Positions 11,529 through 57,837 of a stretch of 64,000 nucleotides of DNA are shown here, one piece after another. Source of the stretch: a virus; IMG/VR virus record IMGVR_UViG_3300031576_000031, positions 1-64,000 of that record. One strand, given 5' to 3'. The notes under the pieces are model-generated. The model was not told the DNA's origin and ran no database searches. It worked only from the letters and a program-made list of their open reading frames with translations. The translations under genes and the position numbers were made by a program. The first letter of the stretch is position 1. Each line of letters opens with the position of its first letter.

Positions 11529-12344
11529 ATGGGAAATGAAATATTAATATTAATAGCAACAAATGATTTATATCTCAAAGCATTCGGACAGGTTTGGTGG
11601 TCCTGCTTCAAATATTACTGGCCGGATAGTAATTGCCCAGTTATGTTTGTTACTCCAAAAGATAATCCATATCCCGAACTCCCATGTTACGTAATCGGAG
11701 AGAATAGGGGCTGGAACAGAAATTTGCTCGATTCCTTGACCTTCTGCGAGAAGACATATAATCCATCAGCGGTTATTCTTTTACACGAAGATTATCTTAT
11801 AGGTCCGCAGAAGAGGTCAAGCTATTTCAACGATAATCTGAACAGATGTCAACAAATTCTCAATGAGAACAAAGATATTCAAACAATAGGTCTCATACAC
11901 AAGGACCCTGAGACTCATCCGTATCAAAATTGGCCTGAGATGCTTGGATATCATGATGTAGAAACGTTGGGTATTCTTCCCGTTGATGTTGGCGGAGTGA
12001 GTTTGTGGCGGGCGTCTTCTTTAAGAAAACACATTGAAAGAGTAATATCGATTGTCCCACAAGAGCGCGATATGGGCAGGAACGGCGCGGCGGAATTCTC
12101 GTATTATGGTTCCTTATGGTCAAGGGAAGAAAAACAAATTCATCTAAGAGTGAAGCGCGGCATAGCGTATTGTGATGGGCTATTGAATATTCTCTATGGC
12201 GTAACAATAGAGCTTGGGAGATTGAGAATTACTGATGCCCAACATTTAATAGAAGTAGAACGCGCTCTTGGTAAGGGACTGGGGCAGATATCAACAATAG
12301 ACTCTATAACCAGTTCCCCAGAAACCCTTCTTAATAAGAATTAG
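11529..12344 (+). CDS. Glycosyltransferase-like protein
   Basis: A 271-residue protein resembling the glycosyltransferase encoded at 49367-50059. Both have an N-terminal strand and a WSCFKYYWPDSN or RLFKKFWPDCK segment, then GWNRNLLDSL or GWAGNLLKGL, then the acidic metal-binding-type motif LLHEDYLI or LLMQDDFF. This is the order of a GT-A fold. It probably transfers a sugar from a nucleotide donor, with acceptor unknown. It lies far from the main glycan cluster, among small early-type genes, so it may have a separate target. The TAG stop shows that TAG terminates normally here. Confidence 0.65.
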   Translation: MGNEILILIATNDLYLKAFGQVWWSCFKYYWPDSNCPVMFVTPKDNPYPELPCYVIGENRGWNRNLLDSLTFCEKTYNPSAVILLHEDYLIGPQKRSSYFNDNLNRCQQILNENKDIQTIGLIHKDPETHPYQNWPEMLGYHDVETLGILPVDVGGVSLWRASSLRKHIERVISIVPQERDMGRNGAAEFSYYGSLWSREEKQIHLRVKRGIAYCDGLLNILYGVTIELGRLRITDAQHLIEVERALGKGLGQISTIDSITSSPETLLNKN

Positions 12345-26446: not shown

Positions 26447-26722
26447 CTAAAAAAATGGCGTCTCGCCTCTACACAGTTCCTCGTGATTGTCTGCGTGTTG
26501 TTCATAGCCCTCGATCCATCTCCCACAACCCTTAGAACATTTCTTAGCCTTTTTAAGCATTGTATGATTGTAAAGAGGCTCGTGACGAATGATATGGCTA
26601 CCCATCAGCTCATATTCGCCATCATTGAATTCCTCAAGACATTCTGGACACACCAGTTTGGTCTTGACAAATCTTTGGAAGTGATCGGTTGTCTCACGCC
26701 AAGAGCCGTATATCTTCCTCAT
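26447..26722 (-). CDS. Zinc-finger protein, 91 residues
   Basis: CPECLEEF followed by HIIRHE gives a CxxC...HxxxH-like zinc site, and CSKGCGRWIEGYEQHADNHE is a second similar module. Two tandem fingers suggest nucleic-acid or protein binding. It overlaps the stop of the next gene upstream by 4 nt. Confidence 0.6.
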   Translation of the reverse strand: MRKIYGSWRETTDHFQRFVKTKLVCPECLEEFNDGEYELMGSHIIRHEPLYNHTMLKKAKKCSKGCGRWIEGYEQHADNHEELCRGETPFF

Positions 26723-37800: not shown

Positions 37801-38435
37801 CAGTAATGAATGTCATTTGTTAGAACATACTTCCTGCCCGCATTAACACATGCCTGATGGACGACTTTGTTAAGGTCATACTGGATATCCCAATCATCCA
37901 ATGGCATCATCTCGCCATAGAAGTCTTCCTTGAAAGCATCGGAATAATCTTGGAATAACTTGATACCATCGCGGTTCTTGACGTTCCAGAACGGCGAAGA
38001 TGAACATCCAGAAAGGATTACAACATTGCCAGCCCAACCGTTATCAATAGGCCAAGTTACAGGTAGGAACGCTCTCTTAGCCCTGCCGCTCTTACCAAGA
38101 CCATAATTATTGGCATAGTTCAGGCCATTGATTAGTAATTCAAATCCCTTCTGGCTCTTGGCTAATGCCGTGAGATGGAGATTTTGTAGTTTCTTGTCTT
38201 CTTTGATCTTGTCGAACTCTTCGGCAAGATACAGCTCAACTCCGAAGATTGGTTTGACTCCATTAGCCTCACAGGCTCTCTTGTGGCGAATTACTCCCGA
38301 CATCGAGCCATGGTCTGTTAAGCAGAGATACTCGTGTCCATTCTTCTTAGCTGTCTCGGCCAATGAGGTTATTTTGGCAGCACCATCCAAAAGCGATGCC
38401 TCGGAGTGGACGTGGCAATTAATGTACCTTCTCAT
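34788..38435 (-). CDS. dnaE: DNA polymerase III alpha subunit fused to a 4Fe-4S uracil-DNA glycosylase
   Basis: A 1215-residue protein. Residues 1-250 are a PHP domain with apparently complete metal ligands (H8, H10, D41, H42, E67, H87, D208, H210). The C-family polymerase has catalytic D405 and D407 in HPDIDVDI and D563 in IKIDILGLSTL, with DVAALTALWRPGP and SFNRSHAVAYGLLTYW. Residues about 1005-1195 match family-4 uracil-DNA glycosylases: EAPGYNED at 1049-1056, VVHCKP, VLGNKS and VHPSSVL, with C1022, C1025, C1092 and C1108 spaced C-x2-C-x66-C-x15-C, as expected for the 4Fe-4S ligands. The polymerase lacks the usual C-terminal OB and tau-binding parts. The intact PHP site suggests proofreading; the fused UDG suggests uracil checking while copying. 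Confidence 0.93.
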   Translation of the reverse strand: MRRYINCHVHSEASLLDGAAKITSLAETAKKNGHEYLCLTDHGSMSGVIRHKRACEANGVKPIFGVELYLAEEFDKIKEDKKLQNLHLTALAKSQKGFELLINGLNYANNYGLGKSGRAKRAFLPVTWPIDNGWAGNVVILSGCSSSPFWNVKNRDGIKLFQDYSDAFKEDFYGEMMPLDDWDIQYDLNKVVHQACVNAGRKYVLTNDIHYCGQEDWKIHELVICLGQHGMTWNNPHRWKFSTHRNYFRDGDDMYDSMLKMGMDSEVADNSIFNTNEVAEKCYFDLQKYPLDLPCPVKVEDENEYFLQQCAEGLKRRGLEGRDEYWIRLDKESKLIIKKGFVRYMLLVADVINWAKGQGIMVGPARGSAGGCLVSYLLGITEIDPIKHDLLFERFISEDRRDHPDIDVDIAAHERNLIERYLKQKYGDGNVAHVSTFSACYGRSALRDVSRIFEIPLQEVDVAAKSLIYRHESDARVLNVIEDTLESSKEFQGFAKKYPDVVMAASKLEGQIRGVGVHAAGYVVSNNSLLESNRCYLVSGTDGEKSINWDKDDLEDLGYIKIDILGLSTLSVIQEALILIRRNGTNLDLSKLELFDEKTYEAMGRGETATVFQINTPSLTSYCKELKPQSFEDVAALTALWRPGPIQAGQANDYILVRHGKKEPVYLSNGYKEIVQKTRGQLIYQEQISQLLVNLAGFTPAEADKIRKIIAKSKGIEKIREYSQRFIDGCVVNKSLSGEQAGILWEKLLGFGLYSFNRSHAVAYGLLTYWTMYLKIHYPTEYICAYLSHGSTDRESSEGITNLDSALREARRIGIEILGPDILESMSGWTVAGPKALRAGLQEVKYAGEKAKDEIFKLKSNGASFRTIDGFMGLVGRRTVNKRVIKSLLHSGAFDSLSDSDLYKRNFDEIYETYGTKEKHETAKIKAREMELEPIVENYLNYDGSIVTEIEDTCKDICKVLGENYEVVDGDIVSVVNRNTLNAYSHQDLTRVALIESNLRVIRNISPKREFLDSIRDAIKTCTDCDLRQGCKAPVPFEKGKQNVLIVAEAPGYNEDQKGKPLIGKSGQVLFSKLRDLGISRNSVYIDNVVHCKPQGNFLKSTDYIDGCRHLTTLFDIIRPILVLVLGNKSLYYFKGKDSGIMSLSGTTEWDKERKCWLTYCVHPSSVLHSNRDEMVGLFDKGLKEFKRVYSILGGEYEQDQSGLVRSGSERSDHF

Positions 38436-41357: not shown

Positions 41358-41448
41358 ATTGATGACACGGGATATATGTTATTTCTTCGGCATCTGGGGC
41401 CATCCCAGTGCCGAGACAAGGTTTACATTTCACTCCCCTCTTTTTCAT
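41269..41448 (-). CDS. DnaJ-type zinc-finger microprotein, 59 residues
   Basis: The frame begins [16 protein letters not shown] and has [10 protein letters not shown] about 20 residues later, the CxxCxGxG zinc pair of DnaJ. GGAG lies upstream of the ATG. It lies almost wholly between gmd and the primase, overlapping both (26 nt and 89 nt in different frames). A basic tail ([14 protein letters not shown]) suggests nucleic-acid contact. Second of three such motifs in the window. Confidence 0.6.
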
Positions 41449-42448
41449 AGCTCATTTCTCCTACAACCTTTTCTTTCCTTGCCAATCTTAAATCGCTCTC
41501 CATCATCATAGTTAATAGCTGATTATATGAAGTCCTTGGTTCCCAGCCTAGAACGTTTTTAGCTTTGCTATAATCGCCTAATAGGCAATCAACCTCTTTT
41601 GGTCTTAAATATTTCGGATCGAATTCGACATAGTTTTTCCAATCCAATCCCACATAATCAAAGGCATCCTTGAGAAAAGTCTCAACTGTATTGGCTATTC
41701 CGGTAGCAATAACATAATCGTCTGGCTGGTCATGCTGAAGCATGAGGAACATGGCTTCTACAAAGTTTCCGGCAAAGCCCCAATCTCTTTTAGTCCTCAG
41801 ATTTCCAAGATAGAGCCTCTTTTGTAATCCCAATGAGATCCTACTGGCCGCTCTGGTAATCTTACGAGTAACAAATGTCTCGGCCCTTCTTGGACTCTCG
41901 TGATTAAAGAGGATGCCATTACAAGCAAAGATGTTATACATATCTCTGTAGGCTACGACTGAATAATAAGCCGCAACCTTAGCGGCAGCATAAGGACTAC
42001 ACGGCTTGAATTGAACTTGCTCATTCTGTGGTGGCGGAGATGACCCAAACATCTCTGAGGAAGACGCCTGATAGAGTCTGGCGGCTGGGATTATGTCTCT
42101 AATGGCCTCTAAGAGTTTTAGAACCCCACCAGCATTAACGTCAAAAGTATACTCTGGAATATCAAATGATACCCTTACATGGGATTGTGCTGCTAGATTA
42201 TATATTTCATCTGGTTGGACCTCCTCCAGAATCTTGCGGATTGTAGTAGTATCCGTAAGATCGCCGAAATGGAGAAAGAAGTTTGTATCTCCGCCATGAG
42301 GATCATTATAGAGATGATCTATTCGAGAAGTATTGAACGTCGATGCCCGTCTCATTACTCCGTGTACCTGGTATCCTTTTGACAGTAACAACTCTGACAA
42401 ATAACTTCCGTCTTGCCCAGTCACGCCGAATATCAGGGCTCTCTTCAT
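41423..42448 (-). CDS. gmd: GDP-mannose 4,6-dehydratase
   Basis: A 341-residue extended SDR enzyme: [15 protein letters not shown] cofactor fold, SSEMFG, and catalytic Y153-x3-K157 in [10 protein letters not shown]. The NHESPRR segment and [15 protein letters not shown] near the C-terminus are typical of GMD. It converts GDP-mannose to GDP-4-keto-6-deoxymannose. The next enzyme, GDP-L-fucose synthase, is encoded 3.5 kb upstream on the same strand, so the phage encodes the complete two-step GDP-fucose route. The start is coupled to a small membrane peptide (ATGA). Confidence 0.93.
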
Positions 42449-43955: not shown

Positions 43956-44608
43956 TCTTTCTCCCCACTGTAATTATTTTATAAGAACTATCTATTACTC
44001 TCAAAAACGCCTTTGCGAATCCTGGGGGAGTAATCGATCTGAGTCTTTTTGTCTTTTCACTTTTACCCCCCCAATCTCTGTAGCCATGATCCTTGCGGAC
44101 ATGAGCGTACAGGTGCAACTTGCTGTTTAATTGGTAAATTGAAGCGACCCCATAAGAGCGTCTTCTTTGTATATGGATCGCCATAATCGCATGGATCAAA
44201 AATCAATGTTGGTGCACCATCTTCCGTGCCGGATAGATCACCAAGAACATGCCCGCGCAGCCCACGAAGTCTTCCTACAGGATTCTCAAGTGCCCACCAA
44301 TTAGGATTTAGATCAACAATCAAATCAATACACGCATCAACGATCTCCAATGCCTCCTCGGTCCTACCGTCAGCATCCTTTATCTTAAAATATTGTGCCC
44401 CACTGACGCTGAGGTGGTCGCAAGGCGGAGCGGCCAATATGCCATAAATATCTCCCGGATCGTGGTCATGATATTTAACATATTCTCTTACATCCCACTC
44501 TGGCAATGTAATAACTCTGACATCATAACCGGCCTCGGTATATGGTTTGCTCCAAGCGCCAGTACCTCCACATAGATCAAGTATAATACGATCTTTAATC
44601 TGACTCAT
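43942..44608 (-). pseudogene. C5-cytosine methyltransferase-like gene split by a G7 tract
   Basis: The first frame (to 44063) has LDLCGGTGAWSKPY (SAM-binding), AAPPCDHLSVSG (the PPC catalytic loop) and WWALENPVGRLR. It reads TTG-GGG-GGG-TAA at the end. The other frame continues with GGKSEKTKRLRSITPPGFAK and AF, the usual end of this phage family. With six instead of seven Gs at 44066-44072 the frames join into one protein of about 221 residues. An error in the read, slippage-controlled expression or phase variation are all possible. The short protein lacks a target-recognition domain, so activity on DNA is uncertain. Confidence 0.7.
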
Positions 44609-46011
44609 CTCATCCCCACCTCACCACACCACTCGATCTCGAAGCCTTCCCTCTTATAAAGCTCAATCCGCTCGACAGAATGTTTGGCTAAATATTTGTT
44701 ACCGGAATGAATATAATCAATGATATCAACGGTATTGTCCCCGCCTTTCTTTCTCAAAGCCCTACCGATCCTCTGAAGCTGTTGTCCGTGGCTTAGGCCA
44801 CCGGCTGAAAGGATAAGAACGTTTATTTCTGGGATATCGACCCCTTCGGATAGGATCTTACTAGCCACCAAGACCTTTACCTCGCCATTCCTGAATTTTT
44901 CTATTCCACTTCGTCTCTTATCACTCTCCGCTTGACCATGTAGGAACAAATTCCTTACTCCCTTGTTCTCCAGCTCTGAGCTTATTAGACGACCCTGATT
45001 GATTTTTTCGACCAAAATAAGTATCCTTTTCCCTCTTTTGTACCAATCGTAGGCTTGAGTCGCTATAAGAGACGAATATTTAGTATTATACCGAATCATG
45101 GCGTCATAGGCTTGACGATATGGCAAATTGTTAGGCTCGTAATTCAAACAATAAAGATGAATCTTTGGCTTTGCGCTCCAACCTGACTCAATATTATGAG
45201 CATTCTTACGCTCCTGAAGGATTTCGCTTCCTGTCGCGGCGAACATCTTGAACAGCTTCAGCCGTTCTCTAGGTGGACTACCAGTCAATGAGAATCTAAA
45301 TGGGGCATCACACGCCAGACAAAGTGAATACCACGAATTACTCTGGGCATGGGCGGCTTCGTCTACTAATAGCACCTTGAACTTGTTCAACCACGCCTTC
45401 TTCTTGGTATACATCAGGGCGTGAAGAGATTGAACCATTGCCACTGTTAGGCTCTCAGACTCTATGTTCTTACCATCCCCGAATATTCCAGCTTTTTTGC
45501 CAGTTCTCAAAGAATAACGTTCTGAGCATTGATAGAGCAATTCCTTCCGATCCACCAGCCATAGCGTAGGGAGATTATAACACTCCACCAATGCTGCGCA
45601 CACCTCGGTCTTGCCCGAGTTTGTGGGCAAGAGGATGGCTCCTCTTGACTTTATGGTAGCGTTCTGGATTGCCTGTCTTTGAAACTCAGCTAGCCTAATT
45701 CCAATGAGTTCTATATCATTCGCCTTTATGATGGCGTTCCTTTTAACGTCTGAGTACGTATCTAACGTATCATCGATTATTGGAATATCGCCTACGATCT
45801 CTGTGGCGTAGTTCATTAGGCCAGTAGGAAATTGACCGGTCTTGACGCTATAGAAATGATGTCTACCATCCCAAGTTCCTCTCGCCATGCGATATCTTTG
45901 TGAATATTGTATCCCGGGTATCACGCAAGAGAGATGTTGATCTAGCTTGTGTCTTAATTCAGAGGATTCGATGACTAGCTTAGACCAGACTGGAGACGCT
46001 TCGATCTGCAT
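44605..46011 (-). CDS. UvsW-like superfamily 2 helicase
   Basis: A 468-residue helicase starting MQIEASPVWSKLVIE; the ATG is preferred to an upstream TTG. Motif I PTNSGKT at about 129-135, motif II VDEAAHA, motif III SLTGSPP, and motif VI QRIGRALR are visible. An N-terminal region of about 100 residues before the motor resembles the DNA-binding part of T4 UvsW. Such enzymes remodel branched DNA and R-loops, shifting from origin-based to recombination-based replication. The ATGA link with the next gene and shared operon with dnaB support this. Confidence 0.85.
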   Translation of the reverse strand: MQIEASPVWSKLVIESSELRHKLDQHLSCVIPGIQYSQRYRMARGTWDGRHHFYSVKTGQFPTGLMNYATEIVGDIPIIDDTLDTYSDVKRNAIIKANDIELIGIRLAEFQRQAIQNATIKSRGAILLPTNSGKTEVCAALVECYNLPTLWLVDRKELLYQCSERYSLRTGKKAGIFGDGKNIESESLTVAMVQSLHALMYTKKKAWLNKFKVLLVDEAAHAQSNSWYSLCLACDAPFRFSLTGSPPRERLKLFKMFAATGSEILQERKNAHNIESGWSAKPKIHLYCLNYEPNNLPYRQAYDAMIRYNTKYSSLIATQAYDWYKRGKRILILVEKINQGRLISSELENKGVRNLFLHGQAESDKRRSGIEKFRNGEVKVLVASKILSEGVDIPEINVLILSAGGLSHGQQLQRIGRALRKKGGDNTVDIIDYIHSGNKYLAKHSVERIELYKREGFEIEWCGEVGMR

Positions 46012-46930
46012 TAGAAACAAACCAATCGTAAGTCTTCTTCAGGCCGTAATCGAGGGAGAATCTGGGGGCCCATCCCAAGCACCTACCAGCCCTAGTGATA
46101 TCAAGCGCTCTTGCCGGTTGACCATTGGGCTTTGATATATCCCAAACGATATCTCCATTAAAACCTACTATAGTTTTAATTTTTTCTGCGAGTTCTTTAA
46201 TGCTGACCTGTGCCCCAGTCCCAACATTTATTGGATATGGACTCCCGGTAAAGTATAGTGCCTCTTCCAATACCTCAACGAAATCGTCTACTAGGAGAAA
46301 ATCCCTTGTTGGAGAGCCATCGCCCCAAAGTTCGACTGTATTTTTACCATTATCCTTGGCGGTATGGAACTTTCGGATTAATGCCGGAATGACATGGGAT
46401 GTTTCTAAACTCATGTTATCACCTGGACCAAACAAGTTAGTTGGCACCAGATATGTACTCTCAACTCCATATTGCTTAAAGTAGGCCAAACAACCCATTA
46501 ATAATGACAATTTAGCTATCCCATATGGAGCATTTGTTTCTTCCGGCATACCATAGAAGAGATTCTCCTCTTTGAATGGAACTTTTTCATCTCTCTGATA
46601 TGAGCAAGTTGAACCCACAAACACCACTTTAGCATCATAATTCTTGGCAGCATCTAGCACATTGATGCCCATTAATAGGTTATCCCGCCAGAATGCCCCT
46701 GGGGCTCTCATATTTGCCCCTATTCCGCCGCATTTGGCGGCAAGGTGTATAATGATGTCCGGGGTATAGTGACCTACAACGGCATCTGTGGCCTTTGGGT
46801 CCTCAAGGTCATACTCTGAGCTTCTAAACCTGAAGACGTTCTTATAGCCACGGATCTTGAGATAGTCATAGACATGAGAACCCACAAAGCCATAACCGCC
46901 AGTAATTAGGATATTTATATTACTTTCCAT
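45980..46930 (-). CDS. fcl: GDP-L-fucose synthase
   Basis: A 316-residue SDR enzyme with GGYGFVGSHV cofactor fold. S107 and C109 in GSTCSYQ, Y136 and K140 in YGIAK and H179 match the catalytic set of the E. coli enzyme, even in numbering. It epimerises and reduces GDP-4-keto-6-deoxymannose to GDP-L-fucose with NADPH. With gmd it completes the pathway from GDP-mannose. The two are separated by the helicase genes, so they were not acquired as one simple pair or have since been rearranged. Confidence 0.93.
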   Translation of the reverse strand: MESNINILITGGYGFVGSHVYDYLKIRGYKNVFRFRSSEYDLEDPKATDAVVGHYTPDIIIHLAAKCGGIGANMRAPGAFWRDNLLMGINVLDAAKNYDAKVVFVGSTCSYQRDEKVPFKEENLFYGMPEETNAPYGIAKLSLLMGCLAYFKQYGVESTYLVPTNLFGPGDNMSLETSHVIPALIRKFHTAKDNGKNTVELWGDGSPTRDFLLVDDFVEVLEEALYFTGSPYPINVGTGAQVSIKELAEKIKTIVGFNGDIVWDISKPNGQPARALDITRAGRCLGWAPRFSLDYGLKKTYDWFVSNADRSVSSLV

Positions 46931-48178: not shown

Positions 48179-48551
48179 TCTTCTTCTTCCTTAAATTACC
48201 TATTACTTCTGCAAGATCATTCTTGATTCCGTCAAACCCACGACCTCTTATAGCCCTACGGGTAATCGGAATATAAGACCAACCGTAATTCCCCCATGAT
48301 TCTATTTTTTTATTACAAGAGTCAATCTGATCGGCGTAAATCAGCGCGATTGCAACCTTCTTACTTGGAATCCCAAGGTGAGCCACACTATCTATCCCGA
48401 TCCAGACCGGAGATTGATACTGGAGCCCCATTTCTTCGCAAGCCCGTTTGATAAGGTCCAATTCGGAACTTTCAAAGGCCATTTTCCCAAGAGTTCGTCT
48501 TATCTCTGGGGGAACGGATAGCATGTCAATGGCCTCTTTGAAAATGCCCAT
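48159..48551 (-). CDS. Hypothetical 130-residue protein
   Basis: An alpha-beta protein with GIDSVAHLGIPSKKVAIALIY when read in two pieces, then WGNYGWSYIPITRRAI; this order of strands resembles VSR-like or PD-(D/E)xK folds, but catalytic residues are not clear. Overlaps the phosphoesterase by 20 nt. No confident family. Confidence 0.5.
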   Translation of the reverse strand: MGIFKEAIDMLSVPPEIRRTLGKMAFESSELDLIKRACEEMGLQYQSPVWIGIDSVAHLGIPSKKVAIALIYADQIDSCNKKIESWGNYGWSYIPITRRAIRGRGFDGIKNDLAEVIGNLRKKKSGRKAN

Positions 48552-48796
48552 TATTTTCTCGTATCGGGAAGACAGAACCAGCCCTCGGCCAAATCAACTA
48601 CACCCTCAACTTCCTTCCCATCTTTATCTACTACCCATACCTTAACGTTTTTCAGGGTCTCCCGAAGGCGTACCGGTTCCCCGTACGGTACTAGGATCGT
48701 TCGGACGTGGGTGCAACCTAGAAAGGAGGCGCTCCCTAAGACCATCCCGAATAGCGCCATCCTCAACAGTGTTCGTCGTAGACAGTTTGATTGCAT
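48551..48796 (-). CDS. Small lipoprotein of the lysis cassette (spanin-like)
   Basis: An 81-residue protein with a basic signal region, hydrophobic stretch and lipobox FLGC. The mature part has PYGEPVRLRETLKNVKVWVV and GWFCLPD, a pattern of small phage proteins near holin genes. It might act as an outer-membrane spanin component or another accessory of lysis. It overlaps the next frame by 155 nt, the embedded arrangement known for Rz/Rz1 pairs. Confidence 0.6.
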   Translation of the reverse strand: MQSNCLRRTLLRMALFGMVLGSASFLGCTHVRTILVPYGEPVRLRETLKNVKVWVVDKDGKEVEGVVDLAEGWFCLPDTRK

Positions 48797-48878
48797 TTGC
48801 TATAATCTCCACTATAACCGGCCCACATTCCGCAAGGACAGCTCCAACAAAACGTCCTAGTACCGCCGCTAGATTCAC
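48642..48878 (-). CDS. Small membrane-associated protein overlapping the lipoprotein gene
   Basis: A 78-residue protein beginning MNLAAVLGRFVGAVLAECG with a hydrophobic N-terminal segment and a polar C-terminus (GLRERLLSRLHPRP). It is read in a different frame from the lipoprotein gene over 155 nt. It looks like the small structural-type ORFs between holin and spanin genes of other phages. Which member pairs with which is inference. Confidence 0.5.
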   Translation of the reverse strand: MNLAAVLGRFVGAVLAECGPVIVEIIANAIKLSTTNTVEDGAIRDGLRERLLSRLHPRPNDPSTVRGTGTPSGDPEKR

Positions 48879-49094
48879 TTACTTACCCGCGTTTACATCT
48901 TCAGATCGCTTGTCATTATCCCTACTAAACAGTAGCCCTACCGCGCCCGAAGCGGCGGTGAAGAACGCCATCCAACTAGGACTCGTTGCGGGATCACTGT
49001 CCAACAGCGGCATTAGAACCAATGCCGATAGCGACGAGAATAGCGCCAGTACGCCACACAGCGTCGTCTTCCAACTCATCTTACTCAGATCCAT
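48879..49094 (-). CDS. Holin-like membrane protein
   Basis: A 71-residue protein starting MDLSKMSWKTTLCGVLALF, with a first membrane helix at about 9-28 and a second hydrophobic segment near 42-56 (AFFTAASGAVGLLF), then SRDNDKRSEDV. The SWKTT...RDN pattern is common in short phage holins. It would form the membrane lesion that times lysis. No endolysin is recognised in this cassette; it may lie elsewhere. Confidence 0.65.
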   Translation of the reverse strand: MDLSKMSWKTTLCGVLALFSSLSALVLMPLLDSDPATSPSWMAFFTAASGAVGLLFSRDNDKRSEDVNAGK

Positions 49095-49113
49095 AACTCA
49101 TCCTCCTATAAAA

Positions 49114-49350
49114 TTAATGTTTGGGTTCTAGTTTCTGTTCAATCCTATCAAGCCGCCTAATTATCTCTGCATAGGCAGTAGAATGTTGTGCGGTAATAAT
49201 TTCAAGATTGCGTATACGAATATCATGCCCGCGAATATCGGTCCAGACAGTCGCCAGCCCAGAGCCCAAGAGAAAGCCAACAAGAGAAAAAAGCGCCCAA
49301 ACAACCCTTTTGCCGTCATACCATTTATTCCCATTATTCTCACTTTCCAT
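49114..49350 (-). CDS. Membrane-anchored coiled-coil lysis accessory (i-spanin/XhlA-like)
   Basis: A 78-residue protein with one membrane helix (VVWALFSLVGFLLGSGLATV) followed by a coiled coil (HDIRIRNLEIITAQH, IIRRLDRIEQKLEPK). This layout fits inner-membrane spanins or XhlA-type proteins. It is the first gene of the lysis cassette. Confidence 0.5.
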   Translation of the reverse strand: MESENNGNKWYDGKRVVWALFSLVGFLLGSGLATVWTDIRGHDIRIRNLEIITAQHSTAYAEIIRRLDRIEQKLEPKH

Positions 49351-49366
49351 ATCATTCCTCCTACTT

Positions 49367-50059
49367 TTACTTGGAGGATAAAATTCCTCTTAGGGAAGTG
49401 TCTATCGGAATACCATTCTTAATGCAAAGCTCAATGGCGTCGGGATTCCATTGACCTCTAGTAATGGCGGAGCATATATACGACAGCACATACTTCTTGT
49501 CTCTATAAAGACTGTAAAACTCGCCTTCTGGTCTGTTTAATGTTCCTTCGATCTCGAATGATGCCGCCGAGACCCCTACATTGCTTAGTATGTCTTTTAG
49601 GACATCGGCTCTCCATATCGCCGCTTGGCAGGAGACCCTATAATCGGCGCTCTTGGCTATTCTACCTAGCAAATAGTTATATTCTCCATCTGGTCCTGGG
49701 CACGGATAAAGTCTTACACAAACCCTTTTGGTATCGGCTTTTATAAACTCAAGTGCATTCTCAATTCCATCGCTATCTACTTCGTCGCAGATGAAGAAAT
49801 CATCCTGCATAAGAAGAACATAATTATCCTCTTCGTCTGCTCCTTCACCCGTAAGAACTTCTAACCCCTTTAATAGATTACCTGCCCACCCCAAGTCCCT
49901 ACCGAGTATCACGGTACTTATTGGTTCTTTTGTATTGTCTTTATGGTCCGATATAAACCATAGATCATATTTACAATCAGGCCAGAACTTCTTAAATAGC
50001 CTATAAAACGGGACTACTGTATCACGATAAGAATAACAGGTAGGGACAACGACATTCAC
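49367..50059 (-). CDS. Glycosyltransferase-like protein (GT-A)
   Basis: A 230-residue protein starting GTG (MNVVVPTCYSYRD), with GAGG upstream and a GTGA overlap with the methyltransferase gene. The landmark LLMQDDFFI is the acidic metal-binding motif. It is related to the protein at 11529 in order of segments. It probably adds a sugar to a glycan or other acceptor. First in position of the glycan cluster next to the lysis genes. Confidence 0.65.
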   Translation of the reverse strand: MNVVVPTCYSYRDTVVPFYRLFKKFWPDCKYDLWFISDHKDNTKEPISTVILGRDLGWAGNLLKGLEVLTGEGADEEDNYVLLMQDDFFICDEVDSDGIENALEFIKADTKRVCVRLYPCPGPDGEYNYLLGRIAKSADYRVSCQAAIWRADVLKDILSNVGVSAASFEIEGTLNRPEGEFYSLYRDKKYVLSYICSAITRGQWNPDAIELCIKNGIPIDTSLRGILSSK

Positions 50060-50925
50060 TTCAAAACCCTCACCTTCAATTCTTTTTCCCAACGATGAAT
50101 GATATTGAGTTTAGGCTCCACTCTGGAGTAGTAATTCCTCAATATTGCCTGATCTCCGATATTATTACGGTTACCAATATATGTCCGATAGATTGCTCCA
50201 TAGGCTTCTTGGTCGAAGAGGCTTGAATATAGATCATGATCTATTGGATAGAAATATAAGATTTCATCCTTTTTCGGCGGCAGTACAAACCATTTATGAT
50301 CCTGTTCACCAAAGAGGAATAAACCATCCTTCCACGGCATCGGACACTCTACTACGCCCCCCTTGGCAATTCTACTTAACTCTCCAGCAGCGGCTTCTGG
50401 ATCGTTAAGATGCTCAAAGATATGAAACGCGGTGGCGAAATCAAACTCTTTATCTTTGAATGGCATCGTTTCGCAAACAGTAGCCTTGACGAATGTTTGA
50501 TCCGGCAATCTATCGCCAGCAAACTTATCATAGCAATCTACTATGATATTTGCTCTAGGCCAAGGATTAGGCCCACAGCCTACATCAATACAATTCCATT
50601 CTTTCGGAATCTCTTCTTTGATTGAATATTCCCACCTATCTACACACTTTACCTTCTTAAAATAGAGCAACCTTTGATGCTCATTAATAAGAGAAAATTC
50701 GTATATGAAGCCGTACTCCTCGGCTAGTCGTCTTGCAACATCAAGCTCTAATCCATCGATATCAATATACAAAGTTTCTCCGGCCTTGGTATCGCGGTAA
50801 AGATTGCGGAGAATCTCACGAGTCAAAACGATATTGGTATGATCTAGTTCCGGGGCATCCTTCACTTCAATAGCCCTTCGGACTTTAGCTTTTCTTCTAC
50901 TGCCAGTGTCATCAGATCGGGCCAC
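50056..50925 (-). CDS. SAM-dependent methyltransferase
   Basis: A 289-residue protein. The SAM-binding loop is CIDVGCGPNPWPRA, with FDFATAFHIFEHLNDPE as the following strand-helix. The N-terminal 100 residues (with DIDGLELDVARRLAEEYG) form an extra domain. In a glycan cluster it likely methylates a sugar hydroxyl, by context. Overlaps the exostosin-like gene by 64 nt. Confidence 0.75.
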   Translation of the reverse strand: MARSDDTGSRRKAKVRRAIEVKDAPELDHTNIVLTREILRNLYRDTKAGETLYIDIDGLELDVARRLAEEYGFIYEFSLINEHQRLLYFKKVKCVDRWEYSIKEEIPKEWNCIDVGCGPNPWPRANIIVDCYDKFAGDRLPDQTFVKATVCETMPFKDKEFDFATAFHIFEHLNDPEAAAGELSRIAKGGVVECPMPWKDGLFLFGEQDHKWFVLPPKKDEILYFYPIDHDLYSSLFDQEAYGAIYRTYIGNRNNIGDQAILRNYYSRVEPKLNIIHRWEKELKVRVLK

Positions 50926-51785
50926 TTATCTCTGAACAGCCACTTCTCGAAGTATTCCCGTCCCCTCTTACCCATTTCAATGATCTGTTCATCGGTATGA
51001 TCTCTTAGCCATTGTTTGATAAGGTTACCAGCATTGATTGAATCTTGCACGCCATAACGGATCGTACAGGAGCCATAATCGATCTTATCTGCAAATGGTG
51101 CCACATAATCATCGCAGAATAGCACAGGAACTCTACCTGCGGACATGGCCTCCCAAAATCGATATGGATACACATTATGGATTGAAGCTGGTGTTAATTG
51201 AAGACGACATTGTTTCATGCTGTTTACGAACCCTTCGCGTCTAGTCTTCGCCAATGCCGGATCGTCGCGCTCTGTATAGCCCCAAAATTCCTTATAGCAA
51301 GCTAGATCGGCTTCATCTCCAAACCTATTTCTAACACTATCCGTAGCATTAACTCTAACGTTGCTGCTCAACCAGCCATGAAATCCAACATCCTTCTTGA
51401 ACCCTCCATCTGGAATTGAGACACAATTCTTGAAATCTTCTACGGGCCAACTCCAAGGAATACTAACTGGCATTTTGCGCTTCATCCAACCCTTAAGATT
51501 GCATCTAATAAACATTCCATTAGGATATTTATCAGTTTGGAATTCAAAATCGCTGCAATCGTATGACACAAACCGTCTCTCATCTATCCCATAATATTCA
51601 ATAATTTTTGTCCATAGCGCAGGGGTCAATGAGTCAGTTTCTCTTGGCGATAGCGGGACAATTATTGCGTCGGCTTTCTCAATATCCTTTATCTTCTCAC
51701 CACTCAATCTTAGACCAGAATGGACTTTATCCCCACAATAGCCCAACCTTGAGAGTTCCGGCCAATCAATCTCATAAATCTTCAT
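50862..51785 (-). CDS. Exostosin-like glycosyltransferase
   Basis: A 307-residue GT-B-type protein. Signature: RLQLTPASIHNVYPYRFWEA continuing MSAGRVPVLFCDDY, which is the conserved donor-binding region of the exostosin (GT47) family. N-terminal half has a GFHGWLSS segment. The acceptor is unknown. ATGA overlap with the downstream glycosyltransferase gene. Confidence 0.75.
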   Translation of the reverse strand: MKIYEIDWPELSRLGYCGDKVHSGLRLSGEKIKDIEKADAIIVPLSPRETDSLTPALWTKIIEYYGIDERRFVSYDCSDFEFQTDKYPNGMFIRCNLKGWMKRKMPVSIPWSWPVEDFKNCVSIPDGGFKKDVGFHGWLSSNVRVNATDSVRNRFGDEADLACYKEFWGYTERDDPALAKTRREGFVNSMKQCRLQLTPASIHNVYPYRFWEAMSAGRVPVLFCDDYVAPFADKIDYGSCTIRYGVQDSINAGNLIKQWLRDHTDEQIIEMGKRGREYFEKWLFRDKWPDLMTLAVEEKLKSEGLLK

Positions 51786-52681
51786 CTACATTTCTCTCCA
51801 ACCAATTTGCCAAACATCTTCATCTCGTAATTATATAATACTTCTTCATAGGGTTCATAGATATATTTGATTACATCTGGCGTTAGAGGATAGCCGGTTC
51901 TAAAAGACGGATTATTCTTACGTCTATGTTCGTGGCCGTGGTACATCACCAATGGGAATCCGCCATCCTCATTAATCCTGAATATCCAGATCGTATCCTT
52001 ATCCCTATCATACACAGTATTATAACCCCTAATATGCCAAGGACCATTCCCGGCTCCGTCTGGAAGAATAGTAAGCCTATTGCCAAGTTCATCCGGCCAC
52101 GAATCAAGATAGAATTGGTCTCCCATCTGACCGCGCTCAGTCCCACAATATTCGAGAACCTTATAGGCCCAATTGGAGAGTATACCTAGTCCAGTTTTAT
52201 TCTTCTTGAAAGTCACCCAAGAAACATTAAAGACCCCATTTGGTAGAAGTCTAACCTCATCTTCCTTTAGGAATCTATGAGGAACTACTGCAACATCCCC
52301 GTTAAATCCTCGGAATCCTAGCTCTGGATCATTAAAAAAGAATGTATCAGAGTCCAAATATGTGATGTCATCATAAGCAACTTCCTTCTCAGACACATCA
52401 TGAGTCCATAAACTCGCCAGCCCCCAACAGAAATCTCTATGCGATCTGTATTTCTTGAGGAGCTTCATTTGAGAGGATTCAAACTGAGAGTACGGAGTAA
52501 CTAGGAATAGTCCGTTGCCTTCAATTGTCCTGCTTATCTCACCAATCTTGCCAGTAATTTCGTCGTTCAAACATAAACCATGAATTACAAAGTTACTCTT
52601 ACTGCGCTTGCAAAGGGAGTCATATAGAGCTAGAGCTTTAGGCGCATAATAGTCATCAAAGACCGTTGTATAATGCCTCAT
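51782..52681 (-). CDS. GT8-like glycosyltransferase
   Basis: A 299-residue protein with a GT-A core. DITYLDSDTFFF holds the D-x-D metal motif, with NVSWVTFKK, MGDQFYLDSW and YHGHEHRR farther on. Such enzymes transfer hexoses from UDP- or other nucleotide donors. Part of a tight cluster of ATGA-linked genes. Confidence 0.7.
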   Translation of the reverse strand: MRHYTTVFDDYYAPKALALYDSLCKRSKSNFVIHGLCLNDEITGKIGEISRTIEGNGLFLVTPYSQFESSQMKLLKKYRSHRDFCWGLASLWTHDVSEKEVAYDDITYLDSDTFFFNDPELGFRGFNGDVAVVPHRFLKEDEVRLLPNGVFNVSWVTFKKNKTGLGILSNWAYKVLEYCGTERGQMGDQFYLDSWPDELGNRLTILPDGAGNGPWHIRGYNTVYDRDKDTIWIFRINEDGGFPLVMYHGHEHRRKNNPSFRTGYPLTPDVIKYIYEPYEEVLYNYEMKMFGKLVGEKCR

Positions 52682-53400
52682 AGTTTCACTGTCATGATGG
52701 CATAATGACCATAAGTTCCAAACTCCTGATGTTGATACTCGAATACAATATTTCTATTAATCACCCTCAAGCAATTCTTTTCAAGTTCCTTATAGAACTC
52801 CTGCATTCCAAACCATATCTCAAGACACGGCACGTCATATGCCTCCTTGGTAAAGAACTTTGTTGTTGTATTCGTAAGCAAAGGAGTTCTATGGAACATT
52901 ACATACTTTTTTGAGACTCTTACTGCTTCCCGTATAGCTCTCTTCCAATCGAAAAGATGGATCATGCAACAACCTGAAATCACCAAATCGAACCAACAAT
53001 CATTATACGGCAGATTTAGCGCATCTCCAATATCAAACTTGATCCCGGGGAATTTTTCCTCCGCAAACTTCTTGAATGCTTTGGAATAGTCTAGCGCGGT
53101 ATATTCCCATTTATAGTCGTAATGCCCATAGCCTAATTTATCCATAAGATAACCGTAGTACCCACTAGATGCTCCTACCTCAAGGACATTATTAATTGGC
53201 TCTTTTCTTATCGGGTATAGTGAATCTGCAAATGCTCTGAATGGTGGCACCTCGTAATACTTACCCTCATCAATCTTGACCAATTCTTTAGCAACTGATA
53301 TATCCCATTGCTTCTGTGGAATGGAGGCGTCTTGCCAAGCGTTGCTCATCTTAGCCGCTTCTTCAATCTCTTCCTTGGTTTTAAGTTCCGTATAGCTCAC
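52678..53400 (-). CDS. SAM-dependent methyltransferase
   Basis: A 240-residue protein starting GTG (MSYTELKTKEEIEE), chosen for GGGAG upstream. SAM loop is NVLEVGASSGYYGYL, then DIGDALNLPYNDCWFDLVI. A class I methyltransferase; substrate unknown, probably a sugar or lipid carrier intermediate given the cluster. Confidence 0.75.
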   Translation of the reverse strand: MSYTELKTKEEIEEAAKMSNAWQDASIPQKQWDISVAKELVKIDEGKYYEVPPFRAFADSLYPIRKEPINNVLEVGASSGYYGYLMDKLGYGHYDYKWEYTALDYSKAFKKFAEEKFPGIKFDIGDALNLPYNDCWFDLVISGCCMIHLFDWKRAIREAVRVSKKYVMFHRTPLLTNTTTKFFTKEAYDVPCLEIWFGMQEFYKELEKNCLRVINRNIVFEYQHQEFGTYGHYAIMTVKL

Positions 53401-53569
53401 GTTTAATACTCCCACAGTGTCTATGATCCGTTATGAAGTCGGTCACGATCTCAATCAGATCCGTCCCTGACATCGGGTATTGTTCCTCAATGAACTCATA
53501 GTCATGGTAACAACTATCGCACCATAGATACGGATGGCTGTTGTCGTTTACATCGAAGATAATCACCAA
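53381..53569 (-). CDS. Hypothetical 62-residue protein
   Basis: GTG start overlaps the stop upstream. WCDSCYHDYE and HRHCGSI suggest a small zinc site. It overlaps the methyltransferase start by 20 nt. No family was recognised. Confidence 0.45.
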   Translation of the reverse strand: MVIIFDVNDNSHPYLWCDSCYHDYEFIEEQYPMSGTDLIEIVTDFITDHRHCGSIKRELYGT

Positions 53570-54654
53570 ACCATCCTATTGAAAGTGTCAGATACACTCT
53601 TGAGGATATTTTTGTAGGTATGATCTCTCATAGTCCGCTTATGACCAGCTTCCGCGATAATCTTCCTTTCATCATCATGCGCTAAATAATACTTCAGTTT
53701 GTCAATTAAATCGTCCTTGTTGGCATAAGTTACACATTCCTTACCAACCTCGAAGTAATCATTGATATTCTTACTGAGTTCAGTCATTAGCATTGCCCCA
53801 CATCCTGTGCTTTCGAAGCACCTCATATTATTGGTATATCCAGCCGCGATCTCACCGTGCCTGTTGACCACAATTTTACTAGAACTATATATCTTATATT
53901 GATCTAGTCCCCAAGCCTCACCTTGGTAAGTTCTAAAGAGGTCTTCAGTTAATTCATTTCCTATAGAATAGCCCCACCATTTGAAAGTAGGAATTTCCTT
54001 GGCTATAAGGTCTAAACACTCAGTCCCGGATTGCCAATGACCCTCAGAACGTCCACAGTTGCCATTTAAGGCCCTAGAATTGACACCACCCACAAAAGAT
54101 ACGTCTTTGTCACGAAAATGGCTAGAATTGACTCCTAGAGCGTCTAGCAGGCATTCCCCGCCGAAGCCTATCTGCAAAAACTCACTTCTAACACCCAAAG
54201 CCTCGATTTTAGGCAAATAATGAGGAAAGGATGTAAAAATCACATCAAAGGCTCCAATCCTGTCATCGCCTGCCCATGGGCAGCTATGTTGAGCAGCTAA
54301 GACCTTGACACCCATACGCTTAAAGTATTTTAGATGGGATATGGTAAAGAAGCTAAGATCCTGACAGTATAATATATCTGGTTGGTAATCAAGAACTTGC
54401 CTTACTGTGGTATCCTCATCATGGGAATAGGAATATCCACGTTCTTTCATATAGAGCTTCTGACCAACGGTATCATTCCCGATGATATCTATCGCATCAT
54501 AGCCGTAACTCTTAAATGCTTCGGAATAATAGTCCGCTGTGCCAAATTTAAGCGATATTAATCCCGACAATCTGTCGGGATACTTGTCGAAATTACAAAT
54601 GAAGTATCTCAAGACCGCAGGATAATAGGTATCAACAAAGGCTATTTTAAGCAT
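53563..54654 (-). CDS. CgeB-like glycosyltransferase
   Basis: A 363-residue GT-B-type protein similar in layout to the CgeB/spore-maturation glycosyltransferase family: an N-terminal domain with DILYCQDLSFF and LKYFKRMGVKVLAAQH, then KIVVNRHGEIAAGYTNNMR and CFESTGCGAMLMTE in the donor-binding C-terminal half, ending in a helical region. Acceptor unknown. Confidence 0.7.
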   Translation of the reverse strand: MLKIAFVDTYYPAVLRYFICNFDKYPDRLSGLISLKFGTADYYSEAFKSYGYDAIDIIGNDTVGQKLYMKERGYSYSHDEDTTVRQVLDYQPDILYCQDLSFFTISHLKYFKRMGVKVLAAQHSCPWAGDDRIGAFDVIFTSFPHYLPKIEALGVRSEFLQIGFGGECLLDALGVNSSHFRDKDVSFVGGVNSRALNGNCGRSEGHWQSGTECLDLIAKEIPTFKWWGYSIGNELTEDLFRTYQGEAWGLDQYKIYSSSKIVVNRHGEIAAGYTNNMRCFESTGCGAMLMTELSKNINDYFEVGKECVTYANKDDLIDKLKYYLAHDDERKIIAEAGHKRTMRDHTYKNILKSVSDTFNRMVW

Positions 54655-55742
54655 GGCAAAACCCTATTGCACGATGCCACTTTGTTTAGGGATTCTGCTA
54701 CGTATTGAACTTCATCTTCCGTCATCCCATACCAACAAGGGATTGATAGAACACGCTCGGTCAACCAGCCCGTCATTGGGAGTCTCTTAGCGGAAAAACT
54801 ATAGGACTGTCTTGAGGCCATTGTCGGATAATGAACTTTTGTACAAATACCCATTTCCTTGAGTTCTCTGATTACTCTTGAACGGTTATCAACTACTACT
54901 GTAAAAAGATGATAATTACATGATTGGTCAAGGATACGATGAAGCAACTCTTCTTTTAGCACATTATGGTACTTTTCAGCGATCTTAAAGCGTTGGTTTG
55001 TTGCCTCCTGAGTATTACTCATCCTCTTCAGAAGAATTGCCGCCTGTATCTCGTCTAATCTGCTATTTCTGCCAAACGGGTAGATTTGTTCATATGAATC
55101 ATTAAGACCATAATCCCTAAGCCTTCTAAATCTCTCGGCACAGAACTCTGAGGAAGTCACTATCATCCCACCATCACCAAGAGCGCCCAAAGGCTTTGTT
55201 GGATAGAATGAGAAACAGGCCGCATCACTACTTAACGAGAGTTCCTTGCTAGTGCCAGCGGCTTGAGCGGAATCTTCAATGATGATCTTATTGTATCCTA
55301 CTAATTGACGCAAAAAGTTGGTTTGAAATCGTTGTCCATAAAGGTGAACCGGCATAATGGCATAACAATCATCCAATCTATCATCACTGACTATCTTATT
55401 TGGGTCTAGCAAACCATCTATTTCAACATCAACAAATATCGGATTAGCGCCTATGGTCAGAATTGCCGATACTGTCGCTGCGGCGCTATTAGCCTGAGTC
55501 ATTACGCCATGACCAGCTTTGACCCCACAACCTCTAAGGGCAATTTCCAAGGCATCAGTGCAGTTCCCCACTCCAATACCGTAGGAATCCAATCCAACGG
55601 TCCTTGCAAATGCGGTCTCAAATTCCTTTACCTTGCTGCCAAGGATGAAATCCCGAGATTCAAAAGTTTCATCCATCGCCGTCCTAATAAAATCCTCATC
55701 AAGAAGGAGATGGGGGCTGATATTATTGAATGGTACTTCCAT
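54642..55742 (-). CDS. Sugar aminotransferase, DegT/DnrJ (FdtB-like)
   Basis: A 366-residue PLP-dependent enzyme; the start MEVPFNNISPHLLLDEDF was chosen because this family begins near the VPF motif. EDSAQAAGTSKE and SFYPTKPLGALGDGG (with the PLP lysine K in PTKP) are the cofactor motifs. The adjoining FdtA-like isomerase indicates a 3-amino-3,6-dideoxyhexose product, as in dTDP-Fuc3N or Qui3N routes. The dTDP-4-keto-6-deoxyglucose substrate would come from the host, because RmlA/RmlB are not seen here. Confidence 0.85.
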   Translation of the reverse strand: MEVPFNNISPHLLLDEDFIRTAMDETFESRDFILGSKVKEFETAFARTVGLDSYGIGVGNCTDALEIALRGCGVKAGHGVMTQANSAAATVSAILTIGANPIFVDVEIDGLLDPNKIVSDDRLDDCYAIMPVHLYGQRFQTNFLRQLVGYNKIIIEDSAQAAGTSKELSLSSDAACFSFYPTKPLGALGDGGMIVTSSEFCAERFRRLRDYGLNDSYEQIYPFGRNSRLDEIQAAILLKRMSNTQEATNQRFKIAEKYHNVLKEELLHRILDQSCNYHLFTVVVDNRSRVIRELKEMGICTKVHYPTMASRQSYSFSAKRLPMTGWLTERVLSIPCWYGMTEDEVQYVAESLNKVASCNRVLPCLK

Positions 55743-56133
55743 AAGATTTGAATTCATCAAAAGACCGGATATAATCCAACTCGTCATAGGGGGCATCGGC
55801 CAAAACAAGGATCTTGGTCTCAATCTCGCAATAACAGATGCCCAACCAATTCATGGGTGGAACATAAAGATATCTATTATTCACTGAGTCCATCGCAAAG
55901 GTTGTATGTTCAACATCATTCGGAGTCAAGATATCAGCGAGGAGATGACCCTCCATACATATCACCAATTGTTTCAACTCTCTGTGCGCATGGTTCCCCC
56001 TGACCGAATCTTTCTTTAAGCCTTCAATCCAGAACGCCCTTTGTGGTTGGAATGGATGACCATCGACAATAGTTAAGACGCCACTATCGGTTTTTTGTGA
56101 CTTCAATTCGATCAAATAAGCTCGCTCAAACAT
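55723..56133 (-). CDS. Sugar 3,4-ketoisomerase, FdtA/WxcM-like cupin
   Basis: A 136-residue cupin; ATG preceded by GGAAGG (an upstream TTG is less likely). DSVRGNHAHRELKQLVICME is the conserved metal and substrate region, with WLGICYCE near the C-terminus. It converts dTDP-4-keto-6-deoxyglucose to a 3-keto sugar, the substrate of the adjacent aminotransferase. Confidence 0.85.
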   Translation of the reverse strand: MFERAYLIELKSQKTDSGVLTIVDGHPFQPQRAFWIEGLKKDSVRGNHAHRELKQLVICMEGHLLADILTPNDVEHTTFAMDSVNNRYLYVPPMNWLGICYCEIETKILVLADAPYDELDYIRSFDEFKSYGSTIQ

Positions 56134-56734
56134 CGCTGGCCTTCCCAAAACGAAGCATCATCGCTGGATAGCAATGAATGTTTCTCTCTTCCATCATATA
56201 CAAAAATCCATATTCTTCTATCAAACGGATAAGTCCATCCTTAACGTAGCTCATCATATGGTATCCATAATCACTGTTTCTCGGTCCCAAGAGATGACGA
56301 ATATAGAATTCATTTGAGGTAGAGACGAACTTCCTCAATGTTTCTTCATGATCTGGTACATCGATTCTAAGAACTCCACCATAGTCAAGAACTCTATTCA
56401 TTTCTTTCAAGGCCAGTCTGGCCTCTGTAATTGATAGATGTTCAAATGATTGTCTAGCGAGGAGTTCGCTCGCCAATTTAGCTTTAACTGGCAGGTTTAA
56501 GAATGAACCATAGGCATCGCACACGTATTCATCGTTCTTAGGCCCTACAAGAAAGTCATTCTGTCCAATATCGTGGCGGGAATAATAATGTTGTTCATCG
56601 GTTATGTATTTTTCGACAAGATCCGGCCTATCGTTCGATAGAAAGCACCTGGACGATTTAAGATCGATGTTCAAGTAGTCTTTAAGATAGACCGTGCCCG
56701 CGCCGCAATGGATTCTTATAGGATCTCGTGACAC
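56126..56734 (-). CDS. Methyltransferase-like protein
   Basis: A 202-residue protein with IHCGAGTVYLKDYLNIDL (SAM-fold start) and LKEMNRVLDYGGVLRIDVPD. This matches the small predicted SAM-dependent methyltransferases common in glycan clusters. Activity unproven; it may act on sugars. It overlaps the isomerase start by 8 nt. Confidence 0.65.
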   Translation of the reverse strand: MSRDPIRIHCGAGTVYLKDYLNIDLKSSRCFLSNDRPDLVEKYITDEQHYYSRHDIGQNDFLVGPKNDEYVCDAYGSFLNLPVKAKLASELLARQSFEHLSITEARLALKEMNRVLDYGGVLRIDVPDHEETLRKFVSTSNEFYIRHLLGPRNSDYGYHMMSYVKDGLIRLIEEYGFLYMMEERNIHCYPAMMLRFGKASDV

Positions 56735-57405
56735 TTGAACCTCTCATGGACCTTTTGCATATCCTTGAGAAACGGTCCATATTTAGCCATTAGTTTAGCC
56801 GCATCATGAGGTTGATGTGATTCGTTTTGAGTCCTAATCCTATCCGCGAAGGGCTTATGGAGGACTCTAGCCGATGGAATTGGGATTACTGGTCTTCCAG
56901 CCAAAAACGACCTGAAGGCAATGGAGTTGTCACCGCCATAGAAGTAAAGAATCTCGTCAAACCATCCAATCGTATTCCCGAATTCTCTACTTATAATCCC
57001 AAAATTGGCATATGGCATCCCCTGATACCAATCAACTCTATAGCCGGACATCCCTTGATTGGCCCAATATAGGGCTCCAATACCTATCCATTTATTCCTC
57101 TCCATCATCCTTACCGCCTCAAAAGCCCAGCCTTCCTGGACCTCAACATCATCGTTCAGCCATATCACCCATCTCCCTTCCGCAAGTTCAAACGCCTTAT
57201 TGTATCCTGCTATATGTCCAAGGCGAGGATTCTCTTCTATAATCTTGATATTTCTAGGAACATCTTGGAGTTCGAGTCTTATATCGCCCGCATCACTAAC
57301 AATCATCTCCCAAGGGACAGTTGTATGCCTTATTACGCTATTGAGCATTGAGAGGAATTGTTGTTTCCTGTTTAATGTCCCAACAATAATGCTCAAATCA
57401 ACCAT
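56716..57405 (-). CDS. Family 2-like glycosyltransferase
   Basis: A 229-residue GT-A enzyme: LSIIVGTLNRKQQFLSML start, ending with the metal motif WVIWLNDDVEVQEG and GGDNSIAFRSFLAG after it. GT2 members transfer sugars from nucleotide donors with inversion. First gene of the glycan cluster in transcription order, next to the tail genes. Confidence 0.75.
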   Translation of the reverse strand: MVDLSIIVGTLNRKQQFLSMLNSVIRHTTVPWEMIVSDAGDIRLELQDVPRNIKIIEENPRLGHIAGYNKAFELAEGRWVIWLNDDVEVQEGWAFEAVRMMERNKWIGIGALYWANQGMSGYRVDWYQGMPYANFGIISREFGNTIGWFDEILYFYGGDNSIAFRSFLAGRPVIPIPSARVLHKPFADRIRTQNESHQPHDAAKLMAKYGPFLKDMQKVHERFKCHEIL

Positions 57406-57420
57406 ATCTTATAGAAGAGG

Positions 57421-57816
57421 CTAGAGGAACTCCCCGTATGTCTTTAGTGTTGTGATTATATTCGGGTCGATTTGTTCAAACCTACCACCTTTTGGCGTAA
57501 TGGTAACTTTAACAATCGGCCTGACAATCCACATAAAATCTGTTACGGCATCCGGCGAAGGTGTTGTATTGAGGCCGAGAAGCCTTACACTATTACCGCT
57601 TTTTGTATATATCGAACCGAACATTCCCCATGTTATTCTGAAGAAGCCATGTCCGGTAATGAAAAACCATGTTACTTTAACTCCAGTAGAGATCGCCCAC
57701 ATAAAGGCCGTTGCGGCATCTGGTGACGGGGTTGTATTGAGTGCGAAAAGCCTCGTACTATTGTTTGTAGTTGCTACTTTTGCCAAAACACTGAATGGGG
57801 TAATTATATCAACCAT
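57421..57816 (-). CDS. Virion-type protein with an internal duplication
   Basis: A 131-residue protein built from two similar halves: NNSTRLFALNTTPSPDAATAF and GNSVRLLGLNTTPSPDAVTDF, each followed by a strand ending near GVKVTWFF or IVKVTITP. Strand-rich repeats like this are typical of virion decoration or tail proteins. ATG chosen over a TTG 3 nt earlier. Location beside tail genes fits. No family was recognised. Confidence 0.6.
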   Translation of the reverse strand: MVDIITPFSVLAKVATTNNSTRLFALNTTPSPDAATAFMWAISTGVKVTWFFITGHGFFRITWGMFGSIYTKSGNSVRLLGLNTTPSPDAVTDFMWIVRPIVKVTITPKGGRFEQIDPNIITTLKTYGEFL

Positions 57817-57837
57817 CAAACACCAAATATCGATTCT

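Follow-up and report, generated by a model that had tools for sequence, protein, structure and literature searches.

What does a tailed phage make with a run of ten sugar-handling genes placed next to its tail genes, and on what is the product put? The question is raised by IMG/VR record IMGVR_UViG_3300031576_000031, a 73,433 bp sequence from an uncultivated virus, of which positions 1 to 64,000 form the stretch analysed here (the window). On its minus strand, positions 49367-57405 hold ten enzyme genes and one open reading frame (ORF) of 62 amino acids (aa), all with intact frames. The enzymes are five glycosyltransferases (GTs), namely GT2, CgeB-like GT-B, GT8-like, GT47-like and divergent GT-A-like, three methyltransferases (MTs) and an FdtA-FdtB (QdtA-QdtB) pair. 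This block, or operon, is probably a mobile cassette, expressed late, whose enzymes glycosylate and methylate a virion protein.

A preliminary description had listed the same five glycosyltransferase-like and three methyltransferase-like genes together with the FdtA-FdtB pair, and Pfam, PDB and homologue evidence, on which the assignments below are based, bears it out. Gene calls are simple ORF picks. In operon order the genes are:

56716..57405, minus strand: GT2a, family 2 glycosyltransferase, first operon gene (PF00535, 56.9 bits; cut-off 23.3)
56126..56734, minus strand: MTa, S-adenosylmethionine (SAM) methyltransferase-like, the operon's most conserved gene (PF08241, 15.5 bits; cut-off 21.2)
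55723..56148, minus strand: FdtA/QdtA-type sugar 3,4-ketoisomerase (PF05523, 92 bits; PDB matches to QdtA, FdtA and WxcM-like proteins)
54642..55823, minus strand: FdtB/QdtB-type pyridoxal phosphate (PLP) sugar aminotransferase (PF01041, 250 bits; best PDB match QdtB 3frk, 190 bits)
53563..54654, minus strand: CgeB-like GT-B glycosyltransferase (PF13524, 96 bits)
53381..53569, minus strand: 62-aa ORF within the block (no significant Pfam match)
52678..53415, minus strand: MTb, SAM methyltransferase (PF08241, 46 bits; kept in 16 sequences)
51782..52681, minus strand: GT8-like GT-A glycosyltransferase (no Pfam match of its own; assigned via its homologue in contig L024)
50862..51785, minus strand: GT47 (exostosin)-like glycosyltransferase (PF03016, 3.7e-6, 26.9 of 33.4, and PF24785, 5.8e-4, both below cut-off; family of 18)
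50056..50925, minus strand: MTc, SAM methyltransferase (PF08241, 38 bits)
49367..50092, minus strand: GTx, divergent GT-A-like, last operon gene (PF00535, 19.8 bits; cut-off 23.3; family of 16, mostly at the same position)

Adjacent genes overlap by 4-64 bases except around the 62-aa ORF, which fills the sole larger gap, and FdtB probably starts near 55742, downstream of a TTG extension. Most cluster proteins found no match in a PHROG search. The assignments of the four genes that score below threshold or lack a match (starting at 49367, 50862, 51782 and 56126) are supported by family-wide conservation. The GT8-like protein keeps its DxD motif (D110, D112) in 22 sequences, and its homologue L024:5346-6257 passes PF01501 Glyco_transf_8 (29.4 against a cut-off of 24.3). 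MTa is 48-55% identical across viral contigs. Likewise, the NDD motif of GT2a (N84 D85 D86) is kept in at least 90% of 23 homologues, and NRHGE and other motifs of the CgeB-like protein in 21. AlphaFold models of the GT8-like protein and GTx (predicted local distance difference test scores of 40 and 30) were too poor to be taken into fold searches.

The new evidence on the block comes from comparison with other uncultivated viruses. IMG/VR was scanned with the GT8-like family and then with the MTa family, and genes were assigned by iterative hidden Markov models. These contigs are fragments and copy numbers derive from pattern-limited scans; 24 distinct contigs (four near-identical pairs merged) carry the operon whole or in part at 33-55% identity, several of them being fragments with one to three operon genes. 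The shared order is GT2a-MTa-[MTc]-[FdtA-FdtB]-CgeB-MTb-GT8-GT47-GTx. MTc is fused to MTa in several contigs (L101, L102, L107, L109) or follows it in other phages, and the order is altered in a few (L165, L174, L175). Because the order repeats in about 24 other viral contigs, chance is excluded. It is highly improbable that the block is a recently captured piece of a bacterial surface-polysaccharide locus, carried as a passenger without a selected phage function. The accessory enzymes do have bacterial homologues, and genes of this kind are indeed acquired by phages, but order and catalytic motifs are kept across many phages despite this divergence, every reading frame is intact, and operon codon usage agrees with that of the phage (r 0.94).

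In most contigs the layout is TerL-portal-Ad1-[operon]-GT2z-Hc1-major tail protein-Neck1-tape measure, where GT2z is an additional family 2 glycosyltransferase at the operon end. The head-tail adaptor gene Ad1 lies upstream of GT2a in 13 contigs (in L112 and L163 with some 3-4 kilobases of other genes intervening), GT2z adjoins the head closure gene Hc1 in 10, and both ends are seen in six (L105, L106, L109, L111, L112, L158). Representative flanks were confirmed with PHROG (Ad1 phrog_40, Hc1 phrog_25, major tail protein phrog_158, Neck1 phrog_5, tape measure, TerL phrog_9). The glycosyltransferases thus sit with virion structural genes. What appears to be new, judging from these sequence comparisons, is the recurrence of an ordered operon, mostly at the head-tail junction.

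The lineages that bear the operon differ widely in base composition (43-68% guanine plus cytosine, GC). The portal protein of the window phage is only ~21% identical to those of the other phages while MTa is ~50% identical, and the operon occupies a different late-region site; together these suggest that it has been transferred horizontally. Portal and operon-gene distances correlate weakly to moderately (r -0.07 to 0.55), so co-inheritance of the two is partial at best. The preliminary description had named absence from close relatives, or degraded members, as evidence against a role for the cluster. The nearest relative by replication genes is L102, whose contig also carries counterparts of the helicases, the primase and the DNA polymerase (49% identity over 759 aa) of the window; it retains the entire operon intact, FdtA-FdtB included, with MTc fused to MTa rather than separate.

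The window phage itself is of the siphovirus type, with a Dit protein, a tape measure, a phrog_290 tail protein, Neck1 and a head-tail adaptor in the remaining record. Its operon is placed after tail genes, beside presumed lysis and replication genes. The earlier placement between lysis and tail genes therefore stands on the tail side, where PHROG identifies Dit, the tape measure, the phrog_290 protein and the head-tail adaptor at record positions 64382-71067. On the other side, 48551-49350 holds small membrane ORFs for which a lysis role is plausible; two of these tested against PHROG (48879, 49114) gave no match. Between operon and tail genes, 57421-57819 contains one sequence motif in two imperfect copies. 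The tail region also encodes a 1,730-aa protein (59165-64357) with Ser/Thr-rich repeated domains, a possible glycan acceptor. Beyond the window, a weak GT2-like gene (record 71595-72305, L002:13596-14306) lies between a presumed capsid gene and Neck1.

Which sugars would be used? An adjacent ketoisomerase and PLP aminotransferase (closest to QdtB), as expected for a dTDP-3-amino-3,6-dideoxyhexose, are both present; the FdtA HxH pair H53/H55 is invariant in 11 viral copies and the FdtB PLP lysine is conserved. At the two positions that differ between QdtA entries 4o9e and 4zu7 in the printed alignments, FdtA has S and L rather than Y/R or R/H, and the galacto or gluco stereochemistry (Fuc3N or Qui3N) is not predictable. 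A PF00483 search of the record found no RmlA-type nucleotidyltransferase, and neither RmlB nor an amino-sugar acyltransferase was identified in the phage; host dTDP-4-keto-6-deoxyglucose is therefore needed. Genes for both steps of the GDP-L-fucose pathway, which the preliminary description had placed elsewhere in the window, are indeed there, and the window also encodes a second member of the GTx family in an oppositely oriented region:

41423..42448, minus strand: Gmd, GDP-mannose 4,6-dehydratase, outside the operon (PF16363, 422 bits; 457 bits to 1n7g)
45980..46930, minus strand: Fcl, GDP-L-fucose synthase, outside the operon (218 bits to E. coli GDP-fucose synthetase 1bsv)
11529..12344, plus strand: second GTx-family protein (BLASTP 4e-7 to 49367-50092)

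Gmd is situated among replication genes, outside the late block, and Fcl adjoins a helicase gene. For the short nucleotide-sugar dehydrogenase also proposed earlier, 25157-25984 gave a weak match (46 bits). Of the 'full programme' of sugar synthesis first envisaged, multi-step assembly and methylation, the amino sugar and probably fucose are supported; completeness is not. The same phage encodes an IMP dehydrogenase/GMP reductase family enzyme (26719-27717; PF00478, 311 bits), homologues of which occur close to glycan genes in L130, L133, L136 and L150.

Sugar supply varies between phages. FdtA-FdtB separates MTa from CgeB in the window, L102 and L170/L171, and L174 has both genes in a different order; the pair thus looks like an optional insert. 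Since other phages carry Gmd and RmlC (L106) or DegT and a GFO/IDH oxidoreductase (L109), the supply genes look exchangeable. More distant viral glycan islands that combine GT8-like, FdtA, DegT, Gmd and Fcl genes were seen in L116-L154.

Three destinations for the glycan had been put forward: the virion, the host surface and phage DNA. The first is favoured, and the other two lack expected partner genes. Remodelling of the host surface would mean that the enzymes alter cytoplasmic precursors of lipopolysaccharide (LPS), O-antigen or capsule, blocking superinfection or re-adsorption of progeny to debris. FdtAB, Gmd and Fcl are enzymes characteristic of O-antigen and S-layer synthesis, and O-antigen clusters commonly contain soluble glycosyltransferases. 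Phage glycosyltransferases are known to alter host serotype (PMC4691112). The membrane components of such systems are nevertheless missing. By hydropathy none of the operon proteins has a transmembrane segment, as befits soluble, cytosolic enzymes, and across the record several hydrophobic segments were predicted only in one ORF of 90 aa and in the tape measure, with no multi-pass exporter seen. The 73 kilobases hold no Gtr- or flippase-type multi-pass membrane protein, nor the multi-pass GtrA flippase and membrane glycosyltransferase of Gtr-type conversion, nor an obvious initiating phosphoglycosyl transferase. Export or Gtr-type conversion by phage proteins alone is thus unlikely. The recurrence of the virion-gene site across lineages of such different base composition also argues against surface remodelling, as does the distribution of MTa, since one would expect phage and host to have surface-glycan enzymes in common. 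A tblastn search with MTa matched nothing in 50,697 phage records or 72,556 plasmids, and found no confirmed match in 84,980 bacterial and archaeal genomes, where an exact degenerate-peptide prefilter could miss distant relatives. We regard surface remodelling as improbable, though the best of the alternatives.

The third destination, DNA hypermodification, in which the glycosyltransferases would decorate modified bases and let the phage escape restriction, is very unlikely. There is precedent for DNA glycosylation by phage glycosyltransferases (PMC9614988; Pyle 2024 as cited in PMC12619734), and a weak C5-methylase-like ORF lies at 44063-44608. However, the record lacks both a Tet/JBP domain and any enzyme of the thymidylate-synthase family, so there is no recognised source of a hydroxymethylated base, and in most relatives the operon accompanies virion rather than replication genes.

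Glycosylation and subsequent methylation of a virion protein is therefore favoured, because export and modified-base genes are absent and the virion-gene position recurs. In the scheme we propose, soluble phage glycosyltransferases would act sequentially in the cytoplasm, late in infection, on a newly made head, neck or tail protein, building a short oligosaccharide that the three methyltransferases would methylate or cap. Phage Gmd and Fcl would provide GDP-L-fucose, and FdtA and FdtB would convert host dTDP-4-keto-6-deoxyglucose into dTDP-3-amino-3,6-dideoxyhexose as one donor. The conserved core (GT2a-MTa-CgeB-MTb-GT8-GT47-GTx) would move between unrelated siphophages, with FdtAB, Gmd, RmlC and DegT as exchangeable sugar-supply accessories, and the resulting glycan may serve shielding, adsorption or stability. 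Several points weigh against virion glycosylation: both the virion glycan and its acceptor protein are so far predictions, soluble glycosyltransferases are also able to modify lipid-linked or LPS acceptors, insertions at the neck-gene site could simply be tolerated, and the operon of the window phage lies outside the head-tail connector genes. With these in mind, we lean, if only slightly, towards a more specific picture: a previously undescribed, mobile and order-conserved operon, so far confined to uncultivated tailed phages, that is repeatedly inserted between head-tail connector genes and furnishes a neck, head or tail protein with an oligosaccharide methylated at several places, FdtA-FdtB-type genes being swapped to vary the glycan.

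Such genes are rare in described phages. The GT8-like protein had no match in the phage records, and FdtA was found in the 50,697 annotated records only on four short, unverified faecal scaffolds. These were rejected as phage evidence, as they resemble bacterial polysaccharide loci (RmlA, flippase, FdtA, DegT). One degenerate pattern retrieved 21 FdtA contigs from IMG/VR, each of which also encodes a DegT aminotransferase. Four more viral lineages have their FdtA island close to virion genes: by a major head protein (L010), a portal (L011) or a TerL (L022), and, in L012, on a contig that also encodes a head protein and tail fibres. The DegT gene of L007 (ON073792.1, Aphanizomenon phage Yong-DA) lies near ParA, ParB, replication protein and polysaccharide export genes, and this sequence may be a plasmid. 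Single-protein viral scans with TerL or FdtB gave no match, and alignments were required instead; a TerL scan of bacterial genomes for the host also found none. Literature searches for FdtA with bacteriophage and glycosyltransferase returned no phage FdtA pathway in titles or abstracts, and no paper was found on the operon combination with head-tail genes.

Other features of the record were noted in passing. A DNA polymerase III alpha subunit with a C-terminal uracil-DNA-glycosylase fusion (34788-38435; PF07733, 250 bits; PF03167, 54 bits) has a 49%-identical relative in L178. GC content reaches 58% locally at 9001-10000, against ~43% elsewhere, and a promoter scan gave a signal no stronger than in shuffled sequences.

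Few systems with glycosylated phage particles are known. If our reading is correct, elaborate glycans on the virion would be a trait both widespread and exchangeable among diverse uncultivated siphophages, made by methyltransferases and glycosyltransferases unlike those in the searched libraries; the enzymes named here and the candidate targets (neck and tail proteins) can be tested.

Comparison with known systems places the operon in context. Mycobacteriophages reportedly glycosylate their virions with few glycosyltransferases and host sugars. Their glycans are carried by capsid and tail-tube proteins (Freeman 2023 as described in PMC12619734, PMC12691614), and a methyltransferase is possibly involved (PMC12894461). 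Phage-encoded glycosylation genes are common to both; the present operon differs in its five glycosyltransferases, three methyltransferases and sugar-nucleotide genes, ordered and recurrent in uncultivated siphophages. In chlorovirus PBCV-1, viral glycosyltransferases and methyltransferases (A064R, A061L) finish a methylated capsid glycan, with fucose supplied by viral Gmd (A118R) and GMER (PMC9614988, PMC4691112). Viral Gmd and GDP-fucose synthase, several glycosyltransferases and methyltransferases are shared as gene types; PBCV-1, however, infects eukaryotes, and the passages available on it do not report an FdtAB amino sugar. Mimivirus makes a methylated amino sugar of its virion fibres by a viosamine pathway (L136/L142) with a PLP-dependent aminotransferase (PMC4691112). 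Like the operon phage it encodes a DegT-family aminotransferase, L136 being a weak PDB match of FdtB, but its product is a 4-amino UDP sugar and not the 3-amino dTDP sugar predicted here. Bacterial FdtA/FdtB and QdtA/QdtB of O-antigen and S-layer pathways likewise pair an adjacent ketoisomerase and aminotransferase with conserved HxH and PLP lysine, whereas the phage has no RmlA, and no RmlB or acyltransferase was identified. By analogy, then, the operon would work as the precedent virion-glycan systems do, yet constitute a distinct, ordered cassette.

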